Below are positions 1,277 to 11,677 of a stretch of DNA of 64,000 nucleotides, piece after piece. The position numbers were made by a program, and so were the translations under genes. Location of the stretch: assembly GCF_000218625.1 (NCBI RefSeq), contig NC_015672.1, forward strand, positions 186,001-250,000, in the 5' to 3' direction. Under the pieces are notes generated by a model. That model was not told the DNA's origin. It made no database searches and was given only the letters and a program-made list of their open reading frames with translations. The stretch comes from Flexistipes sinusarabici DSM 4947. Lineage in GTDB: Bacteria; Chrysiogenota; Deferribacteres; Deferribacterales; Flexistipitaceae. Numbering within the stretch: the first letter of the stretch is position 1; each line of letters starts with the position of its first letter.

Positions 1277-1936
1277 ATGAATAAAGATGCCGCAGTTAAA
1301 ATGTTTTTAAACATATTTACAGGCTCCCGGGATGAGGATGTTTATAAAACATTATATCAGATTAGCAGTGTTGTTAGCAAAGAGAAGAAAGAAATTTTTT
1401 TTCTGGAAGATGAGGAAGGCAGTCATATATACTTTTTGCTTTCAGGGGTTGTAAAGCTTTCCAAAACCAATGACGAAGGCAAAGAAGCCGTTATACACTT
1501 TGTAAAGAGCGGCGAAATTTTTGCGGAGATACTTCTTTATCTTAAAAACAGATATCCTGTTACTGCCACGGCACTGGAGGATTGTGAAGCTCTTGCAATC
1601 GATTCGAAAAAACTTTTTGACGAGATAAAAAGACAGCCAGAATTTTCAATGAAGCTTATAGGTGTGTTAGCGGGAAGGATTAAATACTTTGTCAATATGA
1701 TAGAAAATCTCACTCTGGCGGATACAAGAAAGAGATTTTTATCGTATCTCAATAATATTGCAGAAAAGCAAAATTCAAAAGTTGTAACCCTCCCAGTGAA
1801 TAAAGGTGAGCTTGCACTTCTTCTTGGAAGCACGCCGGAAACCTTTTCAAGATTGCTTAAAAAGCTGGCAGAAGAAGAGGTTATTGTGGTCAGAGGCAAA
1901 GAGATAACTCTGATTGATCTCGGTGAACTGCAATGA
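1277..1936 (+). CDS. Crp/Fnr family transcriptional regulator (HcpR/DNR-like)
   Basis: A 219-residue regulator. Residues ~25-120 form a cyclic-nucleotide-type beta-roll (HIYFLLSGVVKLSK, FVKSGEIFAEILLYL). A long dimer helix follows at ~130-150. A Crp-type winged helix lies at ~170-215 (LPVNKGELALLLGSTPETFS, RLLKKLAEEEVIVVRG). There is essentially one Cys, so the iron-sulfur ligands of true FNR are absent and a heme/NO-sensing or ligand-free role is more likely. It is divergent from hcp with a palindrome between them, the arrangement of HcpR regulators. Its stop overlaps the next start by 4 bp (ATGA). The family call is secure; the HcpR assignment is inferred from context. Confidence 0.85.
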   Translation: MNKDAAVKMFLNIFTGSRDEDVYKTLYQISSVVSKEKKEIFFLEDEEGSHIYFLLSGVVKLSKTNDEGKEAVIHFVKSGEIFAEILLYLKNRYPVTATALEDCEALAIDSKKLFDEIKRQPEFSMKLIGVLAGRIKYFVNMIENLTLADTRKRFLSYLNNIAEKQNSKVVTLPVNKGELALLLGSTPETFSRLLKKLAEEEVIVVRGKEITLIDLGELQ

Positions 1937-3960
1937 AACATTTTGTTGCGATTTTTCTGCTTATTCTTTTTGTTTCGCCAAATCTGAATGCTTCTGAAAG
2001 CAATCCTTTGAGTTCTCTTTATAATATGTTTCCCAAAATGACAGAACTGAAAGGTGGAAGCTCGCGGTGGATTGCCACCGGAGTGGTTCATGAACTGTAT
2101 GATAATTATGTAAGACTTGAGAGTACTTACAACTATTTCAGCGAAAAGACGGAAAAAATATGGGACATAAAAAGAGATAAAAACTATTCTGTGGATGTAA
2201 AACTTTTTTTTGCTAAAGATAATAAAGCTGCTGTGAATCTTTATGAAAATATGACGGATAAGAGAGAAAGCAGATTTGAGCGGGATGTAAAGTTCGGAGA
2301 TGAGGGAAGAATTTTTGTAAGGCCTGTTTCTGTGGTCAATATGGTGTCAGAGTATAATCTCATTTTCAGAGAAGAGAATTTTATTGTTCATCTTCATACA
2401 TTTGACGGTTTTGCCCTGATGGATTTCGCCGATTTTTTCCAAAAAAAAATCAATTCATTTGTTTTGAGTAATATAGATATGTATGTTTTTAAAAATTTTC
2501 GTCTTAAAGCAAAAAAAGAGGGTTATATCCCGGAAGAAGAGGAGTTAACAGTTGAAGCTGACAATGCCTCAGCAATTGTGATATCCGGCAGGGTCACAGA
2601 TGAAGAAGGTAATCCTGTCTCTGGAGTCAGTATAGATGTATTGGGGCATGACAAAACGGTGGTTTCAGGTGCTGAAGGGTATTATTCTGTAACGTTTGTA
2701 TTGGGTGAAAAAGGTGTAAAAAGGGAGTTTAAGACAAATTTTACACTTGTAAACAGAAAAGGGCAAAATAACAAAAATAATAAAGTAAAAATGTATAAAA
2801 TGAATGTAATATATCCCGAAAGGGAAGAAACATTCTATCTGAGAATAAACTTAGATGAAAATTCCGGGGAAATATACATTCCATCCAAAGGTATTTTTAA
2901 TAACGTAAATGATATTGTAAAGCAGGGAGATTATCTGGAATTTAAAAGGAACTGTACACCGGAGGGTTCGCTTTTTCAATGCAGACAAACGTATTCGGGG
3001 TTAATGAAGGAATCAGGTTTTCAGGGAAACTGGAAAGGCACAGGGGGCAAAGGTACATTTAAAGGGATACCTATGAAAACTTCTTCTGAGGAATACAATA
3101 TTGCCGAAACGGATTTTTGCAGTATTAAAACGGTCCGGTTAACATCAGATAATTTATCCGGAAATAAACAACGTACTGATAAGCTTTATATCGACCAAAA
3201 TCACGGTATTTCATTGAAATGCAACAGAGATGAGAGAGATTTTTTTATAAAAGATGTGCAGCTGAAAATTACCAAGAAAGCGTCTGAGGAAAGATTTTTA
3301 CTTTATAAGTATAAAGGGCATGAGACAAAGGGCGGCATTTCTTTAAAAAATAAAACTTATATTGGAGTTGTAGGTCCTAATGATGATTTTCTCAGCATAG
3401 ATGTATTTTTAATGCCTGATTCATTGCAAGGGATGACCGTACTTGCAGGGGGCGATACGCAAGCTTATAATAATACAATTTCTTTTGCCTCAGGTGTTCT
3501 TTATCCTGAAAGGCAGCCCAAATTAATTATTGAAAAATTTATAACGGGCAAGGCGAAAAAGAGTGTTACGGGCGTTAATGTAACGCTAAAAAAACTTGTA
3601 AGTGAAAAGGATGTTGCATCGGATAAGGGAACACTGGGAAGAGACGGAAGCGAGGATATGAGACTGGAGCTCAGGATAAAGGGTGTAAGTGGAGATCTTA
3701 AAGCTGTCGAGCTTAGTCATAAAGGAGAAAATTTTTATATTTGGAATACTGAACCTTTTGATATATATCCTGCTGTTGCGCTATTTGTGAACGGGGAGCT
3801 GATTAATCAAAACTCAGGGAAAATCAATTTTCCTGTGGACAACAATGCAGTGATTGATATATTTATTCATAAACCTGAATATTTGAATAAATCAAATATC
3901 AATATGACTTATAAAATATTAATTGGTGACAAGTGGTACAGCGGCAGAGTGGAAAAATAG
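1933..3960 (+). CDS. Exported protein with carboxypeptidase-regulatory-like domain
   Basis: A 675-residue protein of unknown function. It starts with a signal peptide (MKHFVAIFLLILFVSPNLNA). Residues ~40-180 carry an alpha/beta region beginning WIATGVVHELYDNYVRL. Residues ~213-265 match a carboxypeptidase-regulatory/Ig-like beta domain (ISGRVTDEEGNPVSGVSIDV). The C-terminal half is beta-rich, with scattered Cys pairs and Lys/Asp-rich strands. The start overlaps the regulator's stop (ATGA), so the two are probably translationally coupled. A periplasmic or surface location is predicted. It has no catalytic motif I can identify. It could be an envelope structural or binding protein. Confidence 0.7.
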   Translation: MKHFVAIFLLILFVSPNLNASESNPLSSLYNMFPKMTELKGGSSRWIATGVVHELYDNYVRLESTYNYFSEKTEKIWDIKRDKNYSVDVKLFFAKDNKAAVNLYENMTDKRESRFERDVKFGDEGRIFVRPVSVVNMVSEYNLIFREENFIVHLHTFDGFALMDFADFFQKKINSFVLSNIDMYVFKNFRLKAKKEGYIPEEEELTVEADNASAIVISGRVTDEEGNPVSGVSIDVLGHDKTVVSGAEGYYSVTFVLGEKGVKREFKTNFTLVNRKGQNNKNNKVKMYKMNVIYPEREETFYLRINLDENSGEIYIPSKGIFNNVNDIVKQGDYLEFKRNCTPEGSLFQCRQTYSGLMKESGFQGNWKGTGGKGTFKGIPMKTSSEEYNIAETDFCSIKTVRLTSDNLSGNKQRTDKLYIDQNHGISLKCNRDERDFFIKDVQLKITKKASEERFLLYKYKGHETKGGISLKNKTYIGVVGPNDDFLSIDVFLMPDSLQGMTVLAGGDTQAYNNTISFASGVLYPERQPKLIIEKFITGKAKKSVTGVNVTLKKLVSEKDVASDKGTLGRDGSEDMRLELRIKGVSGDLKAVELSHKGENFYIWNTEPFDIYPAVALFVNGELINQNSGKINFPVDNNAVIDIFIHKPEYLNKSNINMTYKILIGDKWYSGRVEK

Positions 3961-3969
3961 GAGGTTCTT

Positions 3970-4110
3970 TTGGGTGATTATATTGGAGTAATCATTTTTA
4001 TACTGCTGATTGTAGTTTTTGCTTTTTTCGGCGGAGGCGGCTGAGCGGCTGATTCATGCAGTATCGAGGATCGATACAAAAAAGATAAAAAGAAGAATAA
4101 GAAGAAATAA
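3970..4110 (+). CDS. Candidate small membrane selenoprotein (in-frame TGA at 4042)
   Basis: A tiny ORF starts at TTG (3970), directly after the upstream stop, with GGAGG at 3960-3964 as ribosome-binding site. It encodes MGDYIGVIIFILLIVVFAF followed by F and four glycines, which is one transmembrane helix, and then TGA. The same frame continues AADSCSIEDRYKKDKKKNKKK-stop; this tail is Lys-rich, as expected for a cytoplasmic membrane-anchor tail. A perfect 6-bp hairpin (4061-4077) begins 16 nt after the TGA. Read through, the product is 46 residues with Sec at 25. Alternatively it ends at the TGA (24 residues), and the tail is chance coding in A-rich DNA. No selenocysteine machinery lies in the window. 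Confidence 0.45.
4061..4077 (+). promoter_or_regulatory. Possible bacterial SECIS apical hairpin
   Basis: GTATCG-AGGAT-CGATAC is a perfect 6-bp stem with a 5-nt loop. The loop starts 22 nt after the TGA at 4042-4044 and has G at its second and third positions. Known bacterial SECIS elements place a short G-containing apical loop roughly 16-37 nt after the UGA. The geometry fits, but such a short hairpin can occur by chance. Confidence 0.4.
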
Positions 4111-4304
4111 AAACCAATTTAAAATGTTGATGCGGTTGAGAAGTTTGAGTTAGTTATGATGTTGGTTTTCGTGTTTTATTGCTCACGAACGCATCTGCTC
4201 AACAATAGGATATCCCAAATGCTTGGAATACCGCATTTCAAAAATAAAGTTTTTTCCTAACAATCTCACTTTCCCTGAATTATTGGAAGGGTCTTTAAGC
4301 TTAA
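4111..4304. other. Intergenic stretch, no gene seen
   Basis: No credible ORF. An imperfect inverted pair lies between about 4124-4140 (TGTTGATGCGGTTGAG) and 4181-4205 and could be a decayed structured repeat. The left target duplication of the following element occupies 4296-4304. Confidence 0.4.
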
Positions 4305-4595
4305 CTGAAGTCACCCCATTTTTCGCAGTGCAAATATTTTTCAATGTAATTTGCACGCATTTCGCAGCCGAAACTCGAAACTACTGCCGCTAACCGTCTA
4401 CACCCTCCTCTCATAATTGTTTTTATTTGCAAATATTTATTCACTTTACCTTCCAACACAGGGTGTGACCGCTAACCGGCAGTACGTTTCTCAGACATCG
4501 GCTGCTTCATTTGTGCAAATTACATTGAAATCAGTGTCATGTTAGCTAAGTATATGTAAAACAATACTTTTATATGATTTTTGGGGTGATGCCAG
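4305..4595 (+). mobile_element. Miniature inverted-repeat element, family 1, copy A
   Basis: This 291-bp non-coding element begins CTGAAGTCACCCCA and ends TGGGGTGATGCCAG, which are imperfect terminal inverted repeats. It is flanked by a perfect 9-bp direct repeat, TAAGCTTAA (4296-4304 and 4596-4604), indicating transposition. Its right arm (about 4531-4595) is nearly identical to copies B (11869-12223, inverted) and C (59358-59718). It encodes no transposase, so it would depend on one in trans. A second palindromic module is nested inside it. Confidence 0.85.
4339..4530. repeat. Nested palindromic module in copy A
   Basis: The module is bounded by perfect 18-bp inverted repeats: TTTCAATGTAATTTGCAC at 4339-4356 and its reverse complement at 4513-4530. 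The same termini bound a shorter module in copy C (59512-59653). Copy B lacks the module and joins cleanly at TTTTTCA/GTGTC. TCA occurs on both sides (4341-4343, 4531-4533), consistent with a short target duplication. Confidence 0.7.
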
Positions 4596-4667
4596 TAAGC
4601 TTAATACTTTAAAAATACAATATTTCTGTTATTATCTAAAATTCAAATCAGCAAAAGGCGGGCAGTT

Positions 4668-5459
4668 TTGTACAGAGTAGTATTAGCATTTGTATTTTTC
4701 TGTTTTTTAGGAGTTTTATTCACTGCTCATGCGGAATATCGGATAGTCAGTTTAGCACCTAATGTGACGGAGATTCTTTTCGAAGCTGGTCTGGGTAACC
4801 AGGTTGTAGGCGTTACCGATAAGTGCAACTATCCGGCAAAGGCTAAAAATATCGCCGAAATTGGCAGTTACTACAGACCGAGCATTGAAAAGATTCTTAT
4901 GCTTGAGCCGACGCATGTTCTGGGTATGAGGGAAGGGTATACAAAAAGGCTTAAATACAGGCTGGATAAACTGGGGATTCGAAACAGGTTTTTCAAAGTG
5001 GATGATTACCATGATATAAGCCGGATGATTGCTGAGATCGGTAAAATATTTGGTAAATCAACGAAAAATATTCTCAGCAGAATTGATTCCTATTTTAATT
5101 CCGGTAAAATAGATTATAAAGGGGATGTTGTTTTTCTTATCAGTGCGAAGCCTGCATATGCCGTTGGGGGAGGTAATTTCGTGAATGATATTCTCAAATG
5201 TGCAAATCTTCGAAATGCACTTGCTGACAGTGGAAAAGATTTTCCCCGAATAAATTATGAAAAAATATTTCAACTCAACCCTGATTATATAATATTGGCA
5301 AGAAGACACGGATCATCGGAGGCTGACAGCTTTTTTTATGAAAAAATCAAAGGACTGGGGGAGAAAGCGAAGATACTGGAGGTTAAGCCGGATATCTTCC
5401 TCAGACCCTCATACAGGATAATAGACGCATGCAAAATGTTAAAAAAATTAATCAGGTAA
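4668..5459 (+). CDS. btuF: Cobalamin ABC transporter, periplasmic binding protein
   Basis: A 263-residue helical-backbone binding protein, first gene of a B12 importer. A signal peptide (VVLAFVFFCFLGVLFTAHA) precedes the mature start at about residue 23. The mature protein opens with the family pattern RIVSLAPNVTEILFEAGLG, followed by VVGVTDKCNYPAKAK and IEKILMLEPTHVL. It starts at TTG with AAAAGGCGGGCAG upstream. The 3' end overlaps btuC by 31 bp. Substrate assignment rests on the adjacent cobalamin riboswitch and btuB-type receptor; a heme or siderophore substrate is less likely. The gene starts only 64 bp after a miniature element. Confidence 0.85.
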   Translation: MYRVVLAFVFFCFLGVLFTAHAEYRIVSLAPNVTEILFEAGLGNQVVGVTDKCNYPAKAKNIAEIGSYYRPSIEKILMLEPTHVLGMREGYTKRLKYRLDKLGIRNRFFKVDDYHDISRMIAEIGKIFGKSTKNILSRIDSYFNSGKIDYKGDVVFLISAKPAYAVGGGNFVNDILKCANLRNALADSGKDFPRINYEKIFQLNPDYIILARRHGSSEADSFFYEKIKGLGEKAKILEVKPDIFLRPSYRIIDACKMLKKLIR

Positions 5460-6415
5460 CCTATTCAAAGATTTTCTTTTACTTTTTAATCTGTTTTGCT
5501 GTAAGTGTCAGTATTATTTTTTTCAGCCTTTCTTTCGGCGGTAAATTTATTAATCCTTTTGATTTTTTTGCATTTGAGAATTCTGTTTTTATGTCACTGC
5601 GGCTGCCCAGAGTGTTGGCTGATTTTATGGTGGGCGCGGGATTGTCCATTGTTGGGTGCAGTTTTCAGACGTTTTTCAGAAACCCTCTTGCTGACCCTTT
5701 TATTTTGGGCATAGCCGGAGCGGCCGCAGTGGGGGTGGCGTTTTCACTTTTTCTCGGTGTATCCGGCTTTATTCCAACTCAAATATTAAGCCTTAGCTTT
5801 GCGCTTGTTACAATATTTTTTGTATACTGGGCAGCCGGTGGGCTGAGCTCTGTTACTGCCAATTCTCTGATATTGGTGGGAGTGGGACTGAATTTCTTTT
5901 TTACATCAATTATCACTTTTTTTAATTCGGTACTCTCGGAAAGTTTTACAAAAGATCTGCTTATGTGGTATCTGGGGAGCACTGTATTTCTTGACCTTAA
6001 TATTGTTATTCTCAGTCTTTTGATAGTGATTGTTTTATCCGCTGTTCTTTATATGCAGAGTGGTAAATTGAATGTATATCTGCTTGGGGAATCTTTTGCC
6101 GTTAACTCGGGTATCAGTATAAAGCAATTTTCACTCATTATTTATATTACCGGCTCACTTATTACTTCGGTATCTGTGGCTCTGTGCGGTGCGATAGGTT
6201 TTGTGGGGATTATTATTCCGCACATTGTAAAAATTATTGCAGGACTTGATCACAGACTTAATATGATACTCTGTTTCTTTGCAGGCGGGAGTTTTCTGGT
6301 TATTATAGATACATTTTTCAAGACAGTTTTTTTCCCTTACGAGGTTCCTATCGGAGCAGTTACAGCAATAATCGGGACACCGTTTTTTATATATATACTT
6401 AGAAGGCGTATATGA
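5429..6415 (+). CDS. btuC: Cobalamin ABC transporter permease (FecCD family)
   Basis: A 328-residue inner-membrane permease with about ten hydrophobic helices. Family signatures are visible: LRLPRVLADFMVGAGLSIVG, FRNPLADPFILGIAGAAAVG (TM2 loop) and GAIGFVGIIIPHIVKIIAG near residue 250. It begins with ATG 31 bp inside btuF; no later in-frame ATG precedes the first helices, so the overlap is real rather than a frameshift. Its stop overlaps the ATPase start by 4 bp (ATGA). It forms the translocation channel with BtuF and BtuD. Confidence 0.92.
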   Translation: MQNVKKINQVTYSKIFFYFLICFAVSVSIIFFSLSFGGKFINPFDFFAFENSVFMSLRLPRVLADFMVGAGLSIVGCSFQTFFRNPLADPFILGIAGAAAVGVAFSLFLGVSGFIPTQILSLSFALVTIFFVYWAAGGLSSVTANSLILVGVGLNFFFTSIITFFNSVLSESFTKDLLMWYLGSTVFLDLNIVILSLLIVIVLSAVLYMQSGKLNVYLLGESFAVNSGISIKQFSLIIYITGSLITSVSVALCGAIGFVGIIIPHIVKIIAGLDHRLNMILCFFAGGSFLVIIDTFFKTVFFPYEVPIGAVTAIIGTPFFIYILRRRI

Positions 6416-7164
6416 ATATTGGTCTCAAGAATCTTAAGATTAGATACAATACGGGCTTTACACTTGATATTGATAATCTCATTTTCCCTTCGGGCGTGAT
6501 TACCGGTATTTTAGGTCCTAATGGAAGCGGAAAAAGTACACTTCTGAAACTGATATCAGGTATAATTGATTCACAGGCCGGTGAAATTACTGCCGGTGGC
6601 AAAGATATCAAAACACTCTCTAAAGCTGAAGTGGCAAGGTGCATATCCTATGTGCCGCCTCAGTTGGATAATTTTCCTATGATCAGGGTTTTTAATCTGC
6701 TTGAGGCTGGGAGATATCCCTATTCTTTGGGGTTTGGAATTCTGGATAAAAAGGATAATGAAAAAATTAATGAAGCCCTTGAAATATGTGATTTGACAGA
6801 AAAAAAAGATTTTTTCCTTAATCAGCTTTCTTCCGGGGAACTACAACGTGCGCTTATAGCCAAAGCCATTGCACAGGATACCGGAGTTGTTCTAATGGAT
6901 GAACCGTTTTCTAACCTTGACCCGAAGTTTACCCTGAAGATTATAGAAATAATAGAATCCATTAAAATGAATAAAACCATTATTATCGCAGTTCATGATG
7001 TTAATATTGCCCACTATTTATGCGATAAACTGGTAGGGCTAAAAAATGGCGGGCTATATTTTGCATTTGACAACAGCTCAGAATTTGATGTAGAAAAGAT
7101 TAATAGTCTGTATGAGGTGAATTTCAGGTATACGGACGGTAATGTTGTTTTAGATTTTAAATAA
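6412..7164 (+). CDS. btuD: Cobalamin ABC transporter ATP-binding protein
   Basis: A 250-residue ABC ATPase energising the BtuC permease. Walker A is GPNGSGKST (about residue 35), followed by a Q-loop region (ISYVPPQ), the signature LSSGELQRALIAKAIAQ, Walker B VVLMDEPFSNLD and an H-loop IIAVHDVNIAHY. It is translationally coupled to btuC through a 4-bp overlap. The cobalamin riboswitch begins directly after its stop, so the riboswitch is positioned for the downstream receptor rather than for btuFCD. Confidence 0.92.
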   Translation: MNIGLKNLKIRYNTGFTLDIDNLIFPSGVITGILGPNGSGKSTLLKLISGIIDSQAGEITAGGKDIKTLSKAEVARCISYVPPQLDNFPMIRVFNLLEAGRYPYSLGFGILDKKDNEKINEALEICDLTEKKDFFLNQLSSGELQRALIAKAIAQDTGVVLMDEPFSNLDPKFTLKIIEIIESIKMNKTIIIAVHDVNIAHYLCDKLVGLKNGGLYFAFDNSSEFDVEKINSLYEVNFRYTDGNVVLDFK

Positions 7165-7167
7165 ATT

Positions 7168-7400
7168 GCTGCAGCGTTTTACATAAGGGGAAGTCCGGTG
7201 AGAGTCCGGCGCTGTCCCGCAACTGTAAGCCTGACGAAACTCCATTGTGCCACTATCCCGCTCCAGAATTCTCCTGAAGTAATTTTGGGGCGGGATGGGA
7301 AGGCGGAGCAGTAGAAGGAAGGCAAGCCAGGAGACCCGGATAAAACGATCGCAGCACCTACTTACGAGGATAAGGGGGTGCCGAATGGTATTTTTTAACA
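7168..7400 (+). ncRNA. Cobalamin (B12) riboswitch
   Basis: Class I cobalamin aptamer features are present in order: AGTCCGGTGAGAGTCCGG, GCTGTCCCGCAACTGTAA (7212-7229), a variable hairpin arm around 7255-7305, and the B12 box AAGCCAGGAGACCCGG (7324-7339). A 3' hairpin at 7354-7381 (GCACC..GGTGC) is followed after 9 nt by TTTTTT (7391-7396), which could be the terminator form of the expression platform. It sits between btuD and the btuB-like receptor on the same strand. Confidence 0.93.
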
Positions 7401-7776
7401 GTTCCTGATTAAACTTCCATATTTTAAAAACCGTGACGCGTAATGTGTAAAGCATAATATGTGTGGCGCATTATTAGGGAAGTGGTGAGATAGGTAGGTA
7501 GTCAGGTAGTGAAGAACCTTGATGTGGAATGTGCTGGTTCAATGTTCAAAGCGACCTAATTATTTTTCTGCCAATAACCGATACACCACTAAACTAATCA
7601 GCAAATAATTCTGTTTAATGACGAAAAAGTTATAATAAGCAGATACGTAGAAATTTTTGGAATATAACAGAGTTTTGTTGCGTTGTTTGATAAAAAGACC
7701 TCTCCGCTTCGGTCGAGGTGACATTAATTTAGGTATGGTTAGGAAAAAAGTATCTTTTAAAAATAAAGGAGGAACA
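7401..7776 (+). other. Long leader between riboswitch and receptor gene
   Basis: About 375 bp with no convincing gene. A low-complexity run of TAGGTAGGTAGT type lies near 7491-7511. A TATAAT is present at 7631-7636 but without a good -35. A hairpin resembling dispersed GTCACCTCGACCGAAGC-type repeats lies at 7698-7719. The receptor's ribosome-binding site, AAAGGAGG, is at 7765-7772. Confidence 0.45.
7696..7723. repeat. Possible GACCTC/GAGGTC dispersed-repeat hairpin
   Basis: ACCTC (7698-7702) pairs with GAGGT (7715-7719), enclosing CCG-CTT-CGG. The minus-strand sequence GTCACCTCGACCGAAGC resembles intergenic repeats of the GTCATCTCGACCGAAGC type seen in many genomes. Only one arm is recognisable here. 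It may act as a hairpin between riboswitch and btuB. Confidence 0.35.
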
Positions 7777-9669
7777 ATGAGAATTTTAATAACCATTTTT
7801 TTTATGTTGTTATCTATAAATATTTATGCAGTTACTCTTGAGGGAATAAATGTTTTCGGTGAAATGTATACAAAAGAGGACTTAAGCAGAAATCCTTCAG
7901 TAGAAGTTATAAGCAGAAAGAAGATTGATAAGCTTTCCCCGTCTTCAACTCTTGATCTTTTGAGCTACGCTGCAGGTTTGCAGATAAAATCCTACAGCAA
8001 GGTCAGTTCAACTATTTCCATGGGCGGTTTTGTGGGGGACAAAGCGGCTTTTAATAATGTTATACTTGTAAACGGCAGACAAGTTAACCCAGTTGATATG
8101 AGCTCTTTTGATATCAATTCAATCCCCGTTGAAATGATAGAAAGGGTGGAGATATATTACGGCCCCAACTCTGTACTTTTCGGCGACAGGGCAACAGGAG
8201 GAGCGATTAATATAATTACAAGAAAGCCGTTGAGAAGCGGCGGCTATCTGAAAGCTGAAGGCGGCTCTTATGATACATCCGATTATTTTGCCCAGGGGAC
8301 ATTTTCCGGTGAACACCTTTCTCTGCTGTTTAATGCCGATAAATACAGAACCGACGGTTACAGGGATAACGGAGAGTATTACAAAGAGAGTCTCAGCGGT
8401 GAGGCCACTTACTATGGAGAACGATTTGATATAGGGATTAACGGCTTATACATTGACAAAGAATATGGACTGCCCGGTGGTCTCACAGATGCGGATATCG
8501 ATCAATTTGACAGAGAACATTCCAATACCCCTGATGACGGCAGTGATGACTATGAATGGCTCATTGGAGGTAATGCTAAACTTTATACAGGATACGGGGA
8601 TTTTATACTGGATGTTTCACAGTACAAAAGACACAGGGATACAAACTGGGTTTCTTACTCGATGAAAAGAAAGGATGAAATTGAAAGTTTTTCTGTAGAT
8701 CCTTCCTACATTTATACAATAGAAAATAACGGGTATTCAAACAAACTTATAGCCGGCTACTCAAACAAAAACACAGATCTGGAAGTATTTACCAGTAATA
8801 GCGAATTAAACAGAGAAAAAGAAAGTTTTTACCTCTCTGATACCTTAAATATTCACAAAACTGTGCTGGAAACCGGATATCGGTATTCAAAAATAGAGGA
8901 CGATTACAAAGATATAGATAAAAGAAAAGACTATGATGCTGATGCTTACTTTGTAAAAATCGGTTACGAACTGAGTAAAAACAATTTCATTTATATTAAA
9001 TACGACAAAAGTTTTCGTTTCCCCACAACGGATGAAATCAATGAATTCGGCGGATTGAACTCCGAAATTGAGGAGCAGACCAATAAAGCTTATGAGATAG
9101 GCTTTAAAAGGGAGCATGACTCTTATCATTTCGATGCATTGGTATACAAACAGGAATCCAATGATGAAATCTTCACAAACCCCGATTATACTTTCATGAG
9201 TACAGAACCTGCCAACACGAATCTAGATACTAAGAAGACTGTTTTTTTAGCAAGATTCGGTTTAAACAGAAAAAATGCAGTGTTCGATGTGGCATATACG
9301 TATACCGACTCTGAGATCGATGAAGACCCCTGGAAAGGTAATACTGCTCCGCTCGTTTCAAAACATACCATTAAAACAAATATAGGTTATAAGTTTAATA
9401 ACGGTTTTGGTATGTATTATTTTTACCGTTATTTCAGTGAGTTTTATCAGGGCAATGATTATGACAATGCAGCCGGAAAAGTTGACGACTACAGTATAAG
9501 TGATGTCAAAATCAGCTATAATTTTGGTAATATTGAGGCGTATGCAAAAATTAATAATATTTTTGATGAGGAATACAGCAATTATGTTATCTATAGCGAT
9601 TTTTCGGGATCAAGTTACTATCCGGCTGCCGAAAGGAATTATTTAGCCGGTGTTAAAGTCACATTCTAA
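7777..9669 (+). CDS. btuB: TonB-dependent outer-membrane receptor, probable B12 receptor
   Basis: A 630-residue outer-membrane receptor. The ATG at 7777 follows AAAGGAGG. The signal peptide is MRILITIFFMLLSINIYA, followed by a TonB-box-like stretch (VTLEGINVFGE). The plug domain (~25-150) includes VISRKKIDKLSPSSTLDLLS, VILVNGRQVNP and IERVEIYYGPNSVLFGDRA then GGAINIITRK. A 22-strand-type barrel follows, ending with an aromatic-rich tail and terminal Phe (YLAGVKVTF). Its location downstream of a cobalamin riboswitch and next to btuFCD and tonB supports cobalamin or a cobinamide as ligand. Confidence 0.88.
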   Translation: MRILITIFFMLLSINIYAVTLEGINVFGEMYTKEDLSRNPSVEVISRKKIDKLSPSSTLDLLSYAAGLQIKSYSKVSSTISMGGFVGDKAAFNNVILVNGRQVNPVDMSSFDINSIPVEMIERVEIYYGPNSVLFGDRATGGAINIITRKPLRSGGYLKAEGGSYDTSDYFAQGTFSGEHLSLLFNADKYRTDGYRDNGEYYKESLSGEATYYGERFDIGINGLYIDKEYGLPGGLTDADIDQFDREHSNTPDDGSDDYEWLIGGNAKLYTGYGDFILDVSQYKRHRDTNWVSYSMKRKDEIESFSVDPSYIYTIENNGYSNKLIAGYSNKNTDLEVFTSNSELNREKESFYLSDTLNIHKTVLETGYRYSKIEDDYKDIDKRKDYDADAYFVKIGYELSKNNFIYIKYDKSFRFPTTDEINEFGGLNSEIEEQTNKAYEIGFKREHDSYHFDALVYKQESNDEIFTNPDYTFMSTEPANTNLDTKKTVFLARFGLNRKNAVFDVAYTYTDSEIDEDPWKGNTAPLVSKHTIKTNIGYKFNNGFGMYYFYRYFSEFYQGNDYDNAAGKVDDYSISDVKISYNFGNIEAYAKINNIFDEEYSNYVIYSDFSGSSYYPAAERNYLAGVKVTF

Positions 9670-10423
9670 AAGAAACGGAGGGGTGAACTCCCCTCTGCTT
9701 ATACTTTTTATTGTATTATCAGGACTGTTTCATTTTATCCTTGCCGGTATGATTATGCTTCCTCACTCAGAGAATCAGTATGCTGGTCAGTTACTTGCAG
9801 TCACTTTTTATAAAGCCAAAAGTCCACAAACAACAAAACAATCTGAAACGGAAAATACTGTTGATAAAAGAACAATAAATAAAAAATCGATAAAACCGGA
9901 GAAGGTGCTTGCAGAGCATAAAGCTGAAAAGCGTACCGAAAAAAAAATTGAGAAAGAAACACCGGAGAAATCAGAGTATAATAAGAAAAGGGCGGCAACT
10001 AAAAAAGATATTACACCGACAAATAATAAAAATGCTAAAAAAGACGTAGCCGGGAGCTATTTGCCAAAACTGACGTTTAACAAGGAAAGAAAAAGTGAAA
10101 TAAGCGGAAGAAGCAGTATTAATCTGAAAAACAATTCCTGGAGTGAGGAAGAAAAGAAAAAGTATCTGCAGCATATCCGCAAACAAATAACAAGCCGGAT
10201 TAAATACCCTTCTATTGCACGAAGAAGGGGGATTGAGGGCGAAGTGCTGGTATCTTTTAATATAAGAAAAGACGGAAGTTTTGAAAAAGTTAAAATTAAG
10301 AGAAAAAGCCCCTATACAGTTTTGAACGATGCAGTGTTAAAAGCTGTTGAGAATGTTGTTGTTACAGAGAAGCCTGAAGAAGAAATTGCAGTGAATATTC
10401 CGGTAAATTTTACGTTAAAATGA
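9650..10423 (+). CDS. tonB: TonB family energy-transducing protein
   Basis: A 257-residue TonB. The N-terminal helix (PLLILFIVLSGLFHFILAG) anchors it in the inner membrane. A long Lys/Glu/Thr-rich periplasmic linker (~45-165) follows, with little of the usual proline richness. The C-terminal TonB domain (~175-257) shows KYPSIARRRGIEGEVLVSFN and IRKDGSFEKVKI. The GTG at 9650 overlaps the receptor by 20 bp; a second GTG at 9683 is possible but too close to the GGAGGG. No exbB or exbD is adjacent, so it must share an energiser encoded elsewhere. The 3' end overlaps ccdA (opposite strand) by 9 bp. Confidence 0.88.
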   Translation: MLKSHSKRNGGVNSPLLILFIVLSGLFHFILAGMIMLPHSENQYAGQLLAVTFYKAKSPQTTKQSETENTVDKRTINKKSIKPEKVLAEHKAEKRTEKKIEKETPEKSEYNKKRAATKKDITPTNNKNAKKDVAGSYLPKLTFNKERKSEISGRSSINLKNNSWSEEEKKKYLQHIRKQITSRIKYPSIARRRGIEGEVLVSFNIRKDGSFEKVKIKRKSPYTVLNDAVLKAVENVVVTEKPEEEIAVNIPVNFTLK

Positions 10424-11149
10424 GGATAGAAAAGGAAACCATCTTGTTAGATATGAAACAATAACCGTTAATAAATCGGTGAGCATAAGCAGACCAATAA
10501 CTATAAGCAAGATACCGGCAACTTTTTCCACGATTATCATTGTTTTACCAGCTTTCTTTATCCCACCTATCACAAAACCGAGTGCAAGAGCAGAAATTAA
10601 AAAAGGTATCCATAATCCAAGAGAATAAGTTAAAAGCAGCAGCATTCCCTGTGAAACGGTTGCTTCCTGGGATGCTAAGGCTAAAATACCTCCTAAAATA
10701 GGCCCTATGCAAGGTGTCCAGCCGAAAACGAAAGCCACACCGAGGAGGAAGGCTTCAGTATAAAAAGGTCCTTTATTTTTTTTCTGATAGTTCCATTTTT
10801 TTTGATTTAATAACTTTTGGATTTTAAAGACACCCAGCATATGAAGACCAAGGATAATAACTACAATCCCGGCAATTTTTGCCAAAACGCCTTTATAATC
10901 ATTAAGCAGCTGGCCTATACTTGTGGCACTTGCACCCAGCATTACGAAAATCAACGTAAAACCCAAACCGAAAAAGACTGCTCCGAGAAAAGCTTTCAGG
11001 CGAGGGGCATGACTCCCTCCTTTGGTGAGGGATTCTATACTTTCACCGGATATAAACGAGATATACCCCGGCAAAAGAGGGAGAACGCATGGGGACAAAA
11101 ATGAAAGTACTCCGGCAAAGAATGCACTGTAAAACGATAAATTTTCCAT
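10415..11149 (-). CDS. ccdA: Cytochrome c biogenesis thiol transporter CcdA
   Basis: A polytopic ~244-residue inner-membrane protein of the DsbD/CcdA family, which moves reducing equivalents across the membrane to keep apocytochrome CXXCH thiols reduced. Six helices are visible, with the two redox Cys in LSFLSPCVLPLLPGYISF (first helix) and FGWTPCIGPILGGILALA (fourth helix). The ATG at 11149 was chosen; a TTG at 11158 is possible and neither has a clear ribosome-binding site. It is divergent from ccmE, so the two cytochrome c maturation genes share the 11150-11272 intergenic region. Confidence 0.92.
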   Translation of the reverse strand: MENLSFYSAFFAGVLSFLSPCVLPLLPGYISFISGESIESLTKGGSHAPRLKAFLGAVFFGLGFTLIFVMLGASATSIGQLLNDYKGVLAKIAGIVVIILGLHMLGVFKIQKLLNQKKWNYQKKNKGPFYTEAFLLGVAFVFGWTPCIGPILGGILALASQEATVSQGMLLLLTYSLGLWIPFLISALALGFVIGGIKKAGKTMIIVEKVAGILLIVIGLLMLTDLLTVIVSYLTRWFPFLSSF

Positions 11150-11272
11150 TGATTTCAAACTTTTTTATTGTATTTTTATCATACAATGTGTAAGAGAATT
11201 CATTATTTATGTCAAGCAATAACATAATGTTTTGCATATATTTGAATAGGTCTATATAAAGGAGTGATAGTT

Positions 11273-11677
11273 ATGAAAAAAAGTAAGTTTTTAATAGCCG
11301 GGCTTATTGTCGTAGCTGCAGTGGGTTATCTGATAATTTCCAGTTTTAATTCCAGCAGTGTTTACTACCTTGAGGTTAGCGAATTGGTGAAAAAACCTGC
11401 TGCTTATTCTGAAAAAGGTTTGAGGGTAAGTGGTGATGTAAAAAACGGTACTGTACAAAAGGATGTGGTTAATCAGCATTTGGAATTTGTTATGTCTGAC
11501 AAAAAAGGATCTGAAATGAATGTTGTATATAATGGAATAATCCCCGATGCATTTAATGAAGATGTTCAGGTTATTGTTGAGGGTGAGTATTCCAAGAAAA
11601 CAAATACTTTTAAAGCCAGAACCCTGTTGGCAAAATGCCCATCAAAATACGAAGCTAAAGTTGAGAAAAAATCGTAG
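11273..11677 (+). CDS. ccmE: Cytochrome c maturation heme chaperone CcmE, Cys variant
   Basis: A 134-residue periplasmic heme chaperone anchored by one N-terminal helix (FLIAGLIVVAAVGYLI). The OB-fold includes YYLEVSELVKKPAAYSEKGL, RVSGDV and VQVIVEGEYSKKTNTFKA. Classical CcmE binds heme through His in HxxxY; here the motif is CPSKY (C-x3-Y, about residues 123-127), the variant reported from archaea and some anaerobic bacteria. The start at 11273 is set by AAAGGAG at 11258-11264. It is monocistronic, followed by a strong terminator. Confidence 0.9.
   Translation: MKKSKFLIAGLIVVAAVGYLIISSFNSSSVYYLEVSELVKKPAAYSEKGLRVSGDVKNGTVQKDVVNQHLEFVMSDKKGSEMNVVYNGIIPDAFNEDVQVIVEGEYSKKTNTFKARTLLAKCPSKYEAKVEKKS

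Follow-up and report, generated by a model that had tools for sequence, protein, structure and literature searches.

Does the in-frame TGA at positions 4042-4044 of the window (by which we mean the whole 64,000-nucleotide stretch of the Flexistipes sinusarabici genome analysed here) end a short membrane peptide, or is it read as selenocysteine (Sec), such that translation carries on into the codons beyond it? A preliminary description of this DNA, made from the letters and their open reading frames, had suggested the latter. We put a probability of roughly 0.9 on the view that this is a selenoprotein gene decoded by way of SelB and a hairpin within its own coding region, that it belongs to a new family with two branches, and that membrane redox is the most likely role of its product.

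The gene and its immediate surroundings

The gene lies on the forward strand at positions 3970..4110. From a TTG start, 24 codons ending GGC GGA GGC GGC lead up to the TGA, and the same frame then runs on for 21 codons, with a Lys-rich tail, to a TAA stop at 4108-4110; the product of 46 residues is LGDYIGVIIFILLIVVFAFFGGGG-U-AADSCSIEDRYKKDKKKNKKK, in which Sec is residue 25. All of these elements, as set out in the preliminary description, are present in the sequence, and so is the GGAGG that it had placed ahead of the TTG: this Shine-Dalgarno site occupies 3960..3964 on the forward strand, its first base being the last base of the TAG stop codon of the upstream gene, and similar AGGAG-type sites precede most orthologues. 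A single transmembrane helix is predicted for residues 3-20 (3976..4029, forward strand; AlphaFold2 pLDDT about 82-85), a segment that is hydrophobic in all members of the family, and Sec is followed in U-x4-C spacing by a conserved Cys30 (TGC, 4057..4059, forward strand), a candidate selenenylsulfide partner.

The TTG lies 10 bases past the stop codon of a co-directional gene (1933..3960, forward strand) that encodes a 675-residue protein with a signal-like N-terminus and a CarboxypepD_reg domain (Pfam PF13620, E 5e-8); the two genes probably share one transcript, and at 5 of the 6 order-level loci read with 5-kb flanks the adjacent upstream gene encodes a protein of similar size with a similar N-terminus.

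On the other side, the next gene in the window begins about 560 bp away, past a mobile-element-like repeat. The element of about 290 bp found at 4290-4610, whose best copies align to about 4305-4595, has inverted arms of 33 nt that are 85% complementary, and occurs in at least eight other near-complete copies in the genome at 96-100% identity, plus more diverged or partial ones; one copy sits just upstream of selA (C1:2173761-2174031), and the element looks like a recently active one of the MITE type. Positions 4668-9669 hold a probable B12 uptake locus, comprising a gene for a periplasmic binding protein (4668-5459; PF01497), permease-like and ATPase-like genes (5429-6415 and 6412-7164), a cobalamin riboswitch (7135-7357; 90.8 bits) and a TonB-dependent receptor-like gene (7657-9669). 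A CcdA/DsbD-type membrane protein (10415-11158, reverse strand) and a CcmE-like protein (11264-11677, forward strand) are encoded some 6 kb away from the selenoprotein gene.

A family with two branches, conserved across the TGA

With the read-through translation as query, orthologues were found in 21 genomes from five families of the host's order, Deferribacterales (a sample of 45 genomes). Each has a single in-frame TGA, always at the same codon, and they are conserved on both sides of it, with protein identity down to about 52%. When about 85,000 species genomes were scanned with the order alignment, three loci came up outside the order, which encode MDSDLLWL..FPKLGVST-U-MSEACSIEDRYK with the TGA and a near-identical hairpin, all three in genomes that have SelB. 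The large phylum to which these loci belong holds a second and larger branch, with matches in 162 of 395 genomes (41%), essentially all carrying one in-frame TGA; the consensus of the 90 members read among these 162 genomes runs from a transmembrane helix through LPKLGVxT-U-MSxSC to a variable, usually basic tail, and the corresponding motif of the Deferribacterales branch is GGGU-x4/6-CSIEDRY. Profile-profile comparison (hhalign) joins the two at 97.8% (E 7e-13), and the branches are homologous; with the A5 profile by itself, the Deferribacterales branch was not recovered at E 1e-3.

A domain-wide profile search of 384 genomes then gave 39 matches in 38 genera (about 10%), most with TGA, from which 30 loci were read, and the family is present in 33 of the 141 tRNA-Sec-bearing genomes of this sample (about 23%). 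The order, phylum (395) and domain (384) samples overlap in part, and two of the loci (L135 and L066) look identical. Plasmid and phage collections yielded no family match. At one locus, in Calditerrivibrio (L036, 5178-10106), the gene lies between alaS and genes resembling those for cytochrome cbb3 maturation (TauE/SafE-like, copper P-type ATPase-like, FixH-like and FixG-like), unlike at other Deferribacterales loci.

Across the 140 members read, the Sec codon is TGA in 139 and CGA in one, and never TAA, TAG or a Cys codon; at the domain-wide loci the count is TGA in 29 of 30, the CGA copy being among them. In this copy (L148; G690:C168:3078-3197) the tail is truncated and a SECIS hairpin is not clearly recognisable; its genome keeps tRNA-Sec, and the copy is probably a decaying gene. 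The preliminary description had looked to alternation of TGA with TGC or TGT among relatives as a check, and such alternation was not found: but for the one CGA, every homologue has TGA, and a search of 45 order, 395 second-phylum and 384 domain-wide genomes (partly overlapping) gave no Cys-containing homologue. The classical argument from Cys/Sec pairs is therefore unavailable here; because TAA and TAG are also never seen, we regard this as an all-Sec family and not as a false positive.

It had further been held that conservation ending at the TGA would speak against Sec. It does not end there, and U-x4-C (or its x5 and x6 variants), the hairpin and the basic tail persist in more than 100 genomes. 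Cys stands at +5 or +6 from Sec in all 90 second-branch members (U-x4-C in 80, U-x5-C in 10), and the 20 order-branch members all have it at +5 or +7 (U-x4-C or U-x6-C); in these 110 members it is coded by both TGC and TGT, and the Ser at +2 and the Ser before the Cys are conserved with both AGY and TCN codons in use. Substitutions after the TGA are concentrated at the third codon position (171/146/254 at positions 1, 2 and 3), in a test that includes some rather distant pairs and is supporting, not decisive. The conservation of Cys and Ser with varied codons, together with this third-position bias, therefore shows selection on the protein sequence past the TGA.

The downstream Cys is nonetheless not essential to membership, since at least six members of the domain sample lack it (L152, L159, L160 and L162-L164) and most of these still carry a SECIS-like hairpin, its loop being GGU or GGUC; in a further member, L150, a Cys occurs only farther along. 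L159, L160, L163 and L164, and also L152 and L162, form a subgroup whose sequences end in GVPT-U-AVP... or similar.

The hairpin, the decoding machinery and the reading of UGA 4042

A bacterial SECIS element is expected to carry G in the first two positions of a small apical loop, which lies 16-37 nt from the UGA (PMC13188914), and the hairpin GTATCGA-GGA-TCGATAC at 4061..4077 (forward strand) fits this rule: its GGA loop begins 24 nt past the UGA. The preliminary description had placed the hairpin correctly, exactly 16 nt past the TGA, and had given it 6 bp and a 5-nt loop; the stem actually has 7 bp, the last of them an A-U pair that closes a GGA triloop, and the earlier version is this same 4061-4077 element minus that pair. 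With at least 6 effective base pairs required, a hairpin that obeys the rule is found past the TGA in 85 of 110 family genes; codon shuffling leads one to expect about 2, and the stretch ahead of the TGA has one in 10 of 110. The hairpins of the 25 other family genes fall below the strict stem threshold. In the 20 order orthologues read, AGT ATC GAG GAT CGA TAC is identical save for one ATC>GTC change that keeps a G-U pair, and in the same 20 genes each conserved Ile or Gly position where the membrane helix begins is spelled with three or four different codons. Families of the order differ by exactly six bases in the spacing between TGA and hairpin, so that the frame is kept; frozen synonymous sites and a kept frame are what a coding-region RNA element would be expected to give.

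Covariation points the same way. Among 37 distinct sequences in the main register, both sides have changed at 6 of 7 pairs, with 60 double-changed cells against 16.9 when shuffled (0/500), and 97% of cells are paired against 20-43% in slid controls; this set (A4) had been picked because its sequences form at least 6 of the 7 pairs in a single register, such that the 97% is partly circular and the covariation counts are the meaningful part. Without selection, at least 6 of 7 pairs form at the main register in 42 of 80 sequences; most other registers give 0-4, and a shift of -2 gives 12, which are probably a second class of hairpin. Mean folding z-scores are -1.3 and -2.2 after the TGA and -0.4 and -0.6 before it. 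The amino acids encoded under the hairpin vary (SIEDRY, RVEDRS, EIGDR, SPASRE), and it is therefore the RNA, and not the protein, that is conserved in the branch from which the covariation set comes. The hairpin at 4061-4077 is far beyond chance.

The Sec machinery of the host had lain outside the view of the preliminary description, for which a genome lacking it would have spoken against Sec; it is present in full on the single contig of 2,526,590 bp. There is a tRNA-Sec with a TCA anticodon (L021; 65 bits), selA and selB are adjacent at C1:2174260-2177432, 27 bp apart (558 and 310 bits), and selD (L032; G000:C1:2185607-2186524, reverse strand) is a selenoprotein gene too, with an in-frame TGA (AAG-U-AAKIGP) followed by a hairpin, AGGTCC-GGA-GGACCT, whose GGA triloop is the same as that of 4061-4077. 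Within the order the gene is found in 21 of 24 Sec-decoding genomes and in none of the 21 others (p 7e-10). In the domain-wide sample 33 of 36 genomes with a strong match have tRNA-Sec, against 108 of 303 with no strong match (p 5e-11); in the second phylum, where selB occurs in 89% of genomes, an association is still seen, though a weaker one (the gene in 155 of 353 with selB against 7 of 42 others, p 7e-4). Eleven gene-bearing genomes that had no full-length selB match or had the CGA copy (seven second-phylum exceptions, three fragmentary order genomes and the one CGA genome) were checked, and all 11 have tRNA-Sec. No linkage to selA, selB, selD or tRNA-Sec was found in the 1.5-5 kb flanks of family loci.

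Continued coding past the TGA, the RNA element and co-occurrence with Sec machinery have each been computed here, the suggestion that TGA 4042 encodes Sec is borne out, and on computational grounds we take Sec insertion at this codon to be near certain. SelB with Sec-tRNA, positioned by the hairpin, would decode UGA 4042 as Sec.

The other readings of the codon have to be set against the same data. Were UGA 4042 an ordinary stop, the gene would give a 24-residue membrane peptide, the hairpin would serve regulation or termination and the continuation would be an accident; the first half is indeed a plausible transmembrane peptide by itself, and an A-rich tail codes for Lys cheaply, yet this reading is strongly contradicted by a codon that is TGA in 139 members and never TAA or TAG, by Ser and Cys conserved past it in varying codons, by a 6-nt length difference ahead of the hairpin that preserves the frame and by strict co-occurrence with tRNA-Sec and selB, and we find it scarcely credible. 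The CGA (Arg) codon of L148 could be taken to mean that UGA is read as another amino acid, whether Trp, Cys or Arg by a near-cognate tRNA or through a suppressor; the truncated tail of that copy and its want of a clear SECIS hairpin are, however, as expected of a decayed gene, and with a SelB-type hairpin in most other members, and the gene absent from order genomes that have no Sec machinery, such decoding seems exceedingly improbable. A selenium-sensing leader or attenuator, which would control a downstream gene through readthrough of the UGA, the peptide being incidental, would suit a small ORF that sometimes sits in an operon (ArsR - gene - thioredoxin); but the transmembrane segment, LPKLGVxT and the Cys are conserved at the amino-acid level, neighbours differ among lineages and are often convergent, and in the window the next downstream gene is about 560 bp off, beyond the repeat, all of which makes a leader very unlikely.

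Predicted topology, possible role and place among selenoproteins

AlphaFold2 (pTM 0.32) models the product as one confident helix, residues 3-20, plus a flexible tail with a low-confidence helix. Net charge is +3.0 on the C-terminal side of the membrane segment and -0.15 on the N-terminal side, the former being the more positive in 95 of 110 members, and by the positive-inside rule this predicts that Sec and the tail lie in the cytoplasm. We thus picture a 46-residue, single-pass inner-membrane protein that would have its N-terminus outside, its basic tail in the cytoplasm and Sec just inside the membrane. A Sec with a Cys nearby suggests a selenenylsulfide/selenol switch, and the Cys of U-x4-C could form a reversible selenenylsulfide with Sec; given at least six members with no downstream Cys, this bond would not be universal.

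As to function, we lean towards membrane-tethered thiol/selenol redox, in which electrons would pass to or from thioredoxin or CcdA-type partners, because Sec has a Cys close by and because CcdA, TlpA and thioredoxin occur among the neighbours; as a specific claim about the product, this has about an even chance of being right. In the neighbourhoods of 90 second-branch loci, CcdA was seen in nine, TlpA in five and thioredoxin in four. One subgroup has the order ArsR - gene - thioredoxin with CcdA nearby; in another, CcdA and TlpA genes converge on the selenoprotein gene, and in two, CcdA is immediately upstream. Most family loci have no redox neighbour, their neighbours are diverse, and what the neighbourhoods say for redox is modest and partly redundant phylogenetically.

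That no Cys form is seen, and that the partner Cys is missing in some members, leaves room for a role that is specific to selenium and not catalytic. Here Sec would be correct and the protein would be a micro-protein of membrane assembly, structure or signalling; its selenol would bind a metal, or act as a sensor or carrier of selenium, and this would account for the lack of any substitution by Cys. Such a role gains from the want of any Cys form in about 140 members, from the at least six members with no partner Cys, from neighbourhoods that are mostly not redox-related and from an AlphaFold2 model with no catalytic fold, only one transmembrane helix and a flexible tail. It loses from the Cys near Sec in every one of the first 110 members, from CcdA, TlpA or thioredoxin neighbours in several subgroups, from the lack of linkage to the sel genes and tRNA-Sec described above and from the fact that most characterised selenoproteins are redox enzymes (PMC13188914). 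On balance we hold a non-catalytic role to be possible but rather unlikely, and keep membrane redox as the preferred reading.

Like the bSECIS selenoproteins FdhF and SelD of E. coli, the gene combines an in-frame UGA, a hairpin just 3' of it in the coding region and a host with the tRNA-Sec/SelA/SelB/SelD set; it differs from them as a new family of about 46-50 residues with no known fold or domain and no Cys homologue, whereas most catalogued bacterial families are domain proteins with many Cys homologues. The likeness to SelK/SelS drawn in the preliminary description stands for the predicted architecture, namely a single N-terminal transmembrane helix, a putative N-out/C-in topology and a basic, Sec-bearing tail that would be cytosolic, with a Gly-rich stretch beside Sec in the Deferribacterales branch; it does not extend to homology, none being detected, and where SelK/SelS have Sec at the extreme C-terminus, the new family has it next to the membrane, followed by Cys, with the SECIS in the coding region. 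The predicted Sec proteins KCU-star, TsoA-TsoY, OS_HP, GOS_A-C and DG/DW/DF likewise have no assigned function and come in many cases from anaerobes (PMC13188914), but no Sec motif listed for them is T-U-M-S-x-S-C or GGG-U-x4-C, and their NCBIfam models do not match. SelW/Rdx, including the SelW of Campylobacter (PMC11955535), is also a small bacterial selenoprotein overlooked by annotation; it is soluble, about 80 residues long and of thioredoxin fold with a CxxU motif, in contrast to a transmembrane protein with U-x4-C.

Neither the 119 prokaryotic selenoprotein families compared by Sec motif (Table 1 of the 2026 review PMC13188914) nor the open literature, searched by sequence motif and topic, offered a fit or a description, although an earlier description in subscription papers is possible. 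Searches with the window protein and 41 members against Pfam, SelK/SelS included, gave chance-level matches only, as did a search of PDB sequences, NCBIfam 20.0 gave no meaningful match for family members, and the family appears to be missing from current catalogues. Homology methods for selenoproteins look for Cys/Sec pairs, and gene callers cut a 46-codon gene such as this at its TGA; with no Cys version found, this is probably why the family has been overlooked. Almost all selenoproteins are stated to have Cys homologues in the paper describing deep-Sep, which retains candidates only if they have Cys homologues or a known Sec homologue (PMC12013277).

We also entertain, tentatively and as a view we would sooner doubt than adopt, a broader picture of an ancient, selenium-obligate family of membrane micro-proteins, which about one in four of the sampled Sec-decoding bacterial genomes would carry and which would perform juxtamembrane chemistry beyond the reach of cysteine as a bacterial functional counterpart of SelK/SelS; in that case a membrane-tethered selenol might reduce membrane-derived oxidants, or handle selenium or metal directly. 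If the family is confirmed, the definition of a selenoprotein would widen to take in very short, domain-less, all-Sec membrane proteins, and further all-Sec families may be suspected to lie hidden. It would also provide a clean case in which Cys never replaces Sec, such that the question of why selenium is used at all becomes directly testable.
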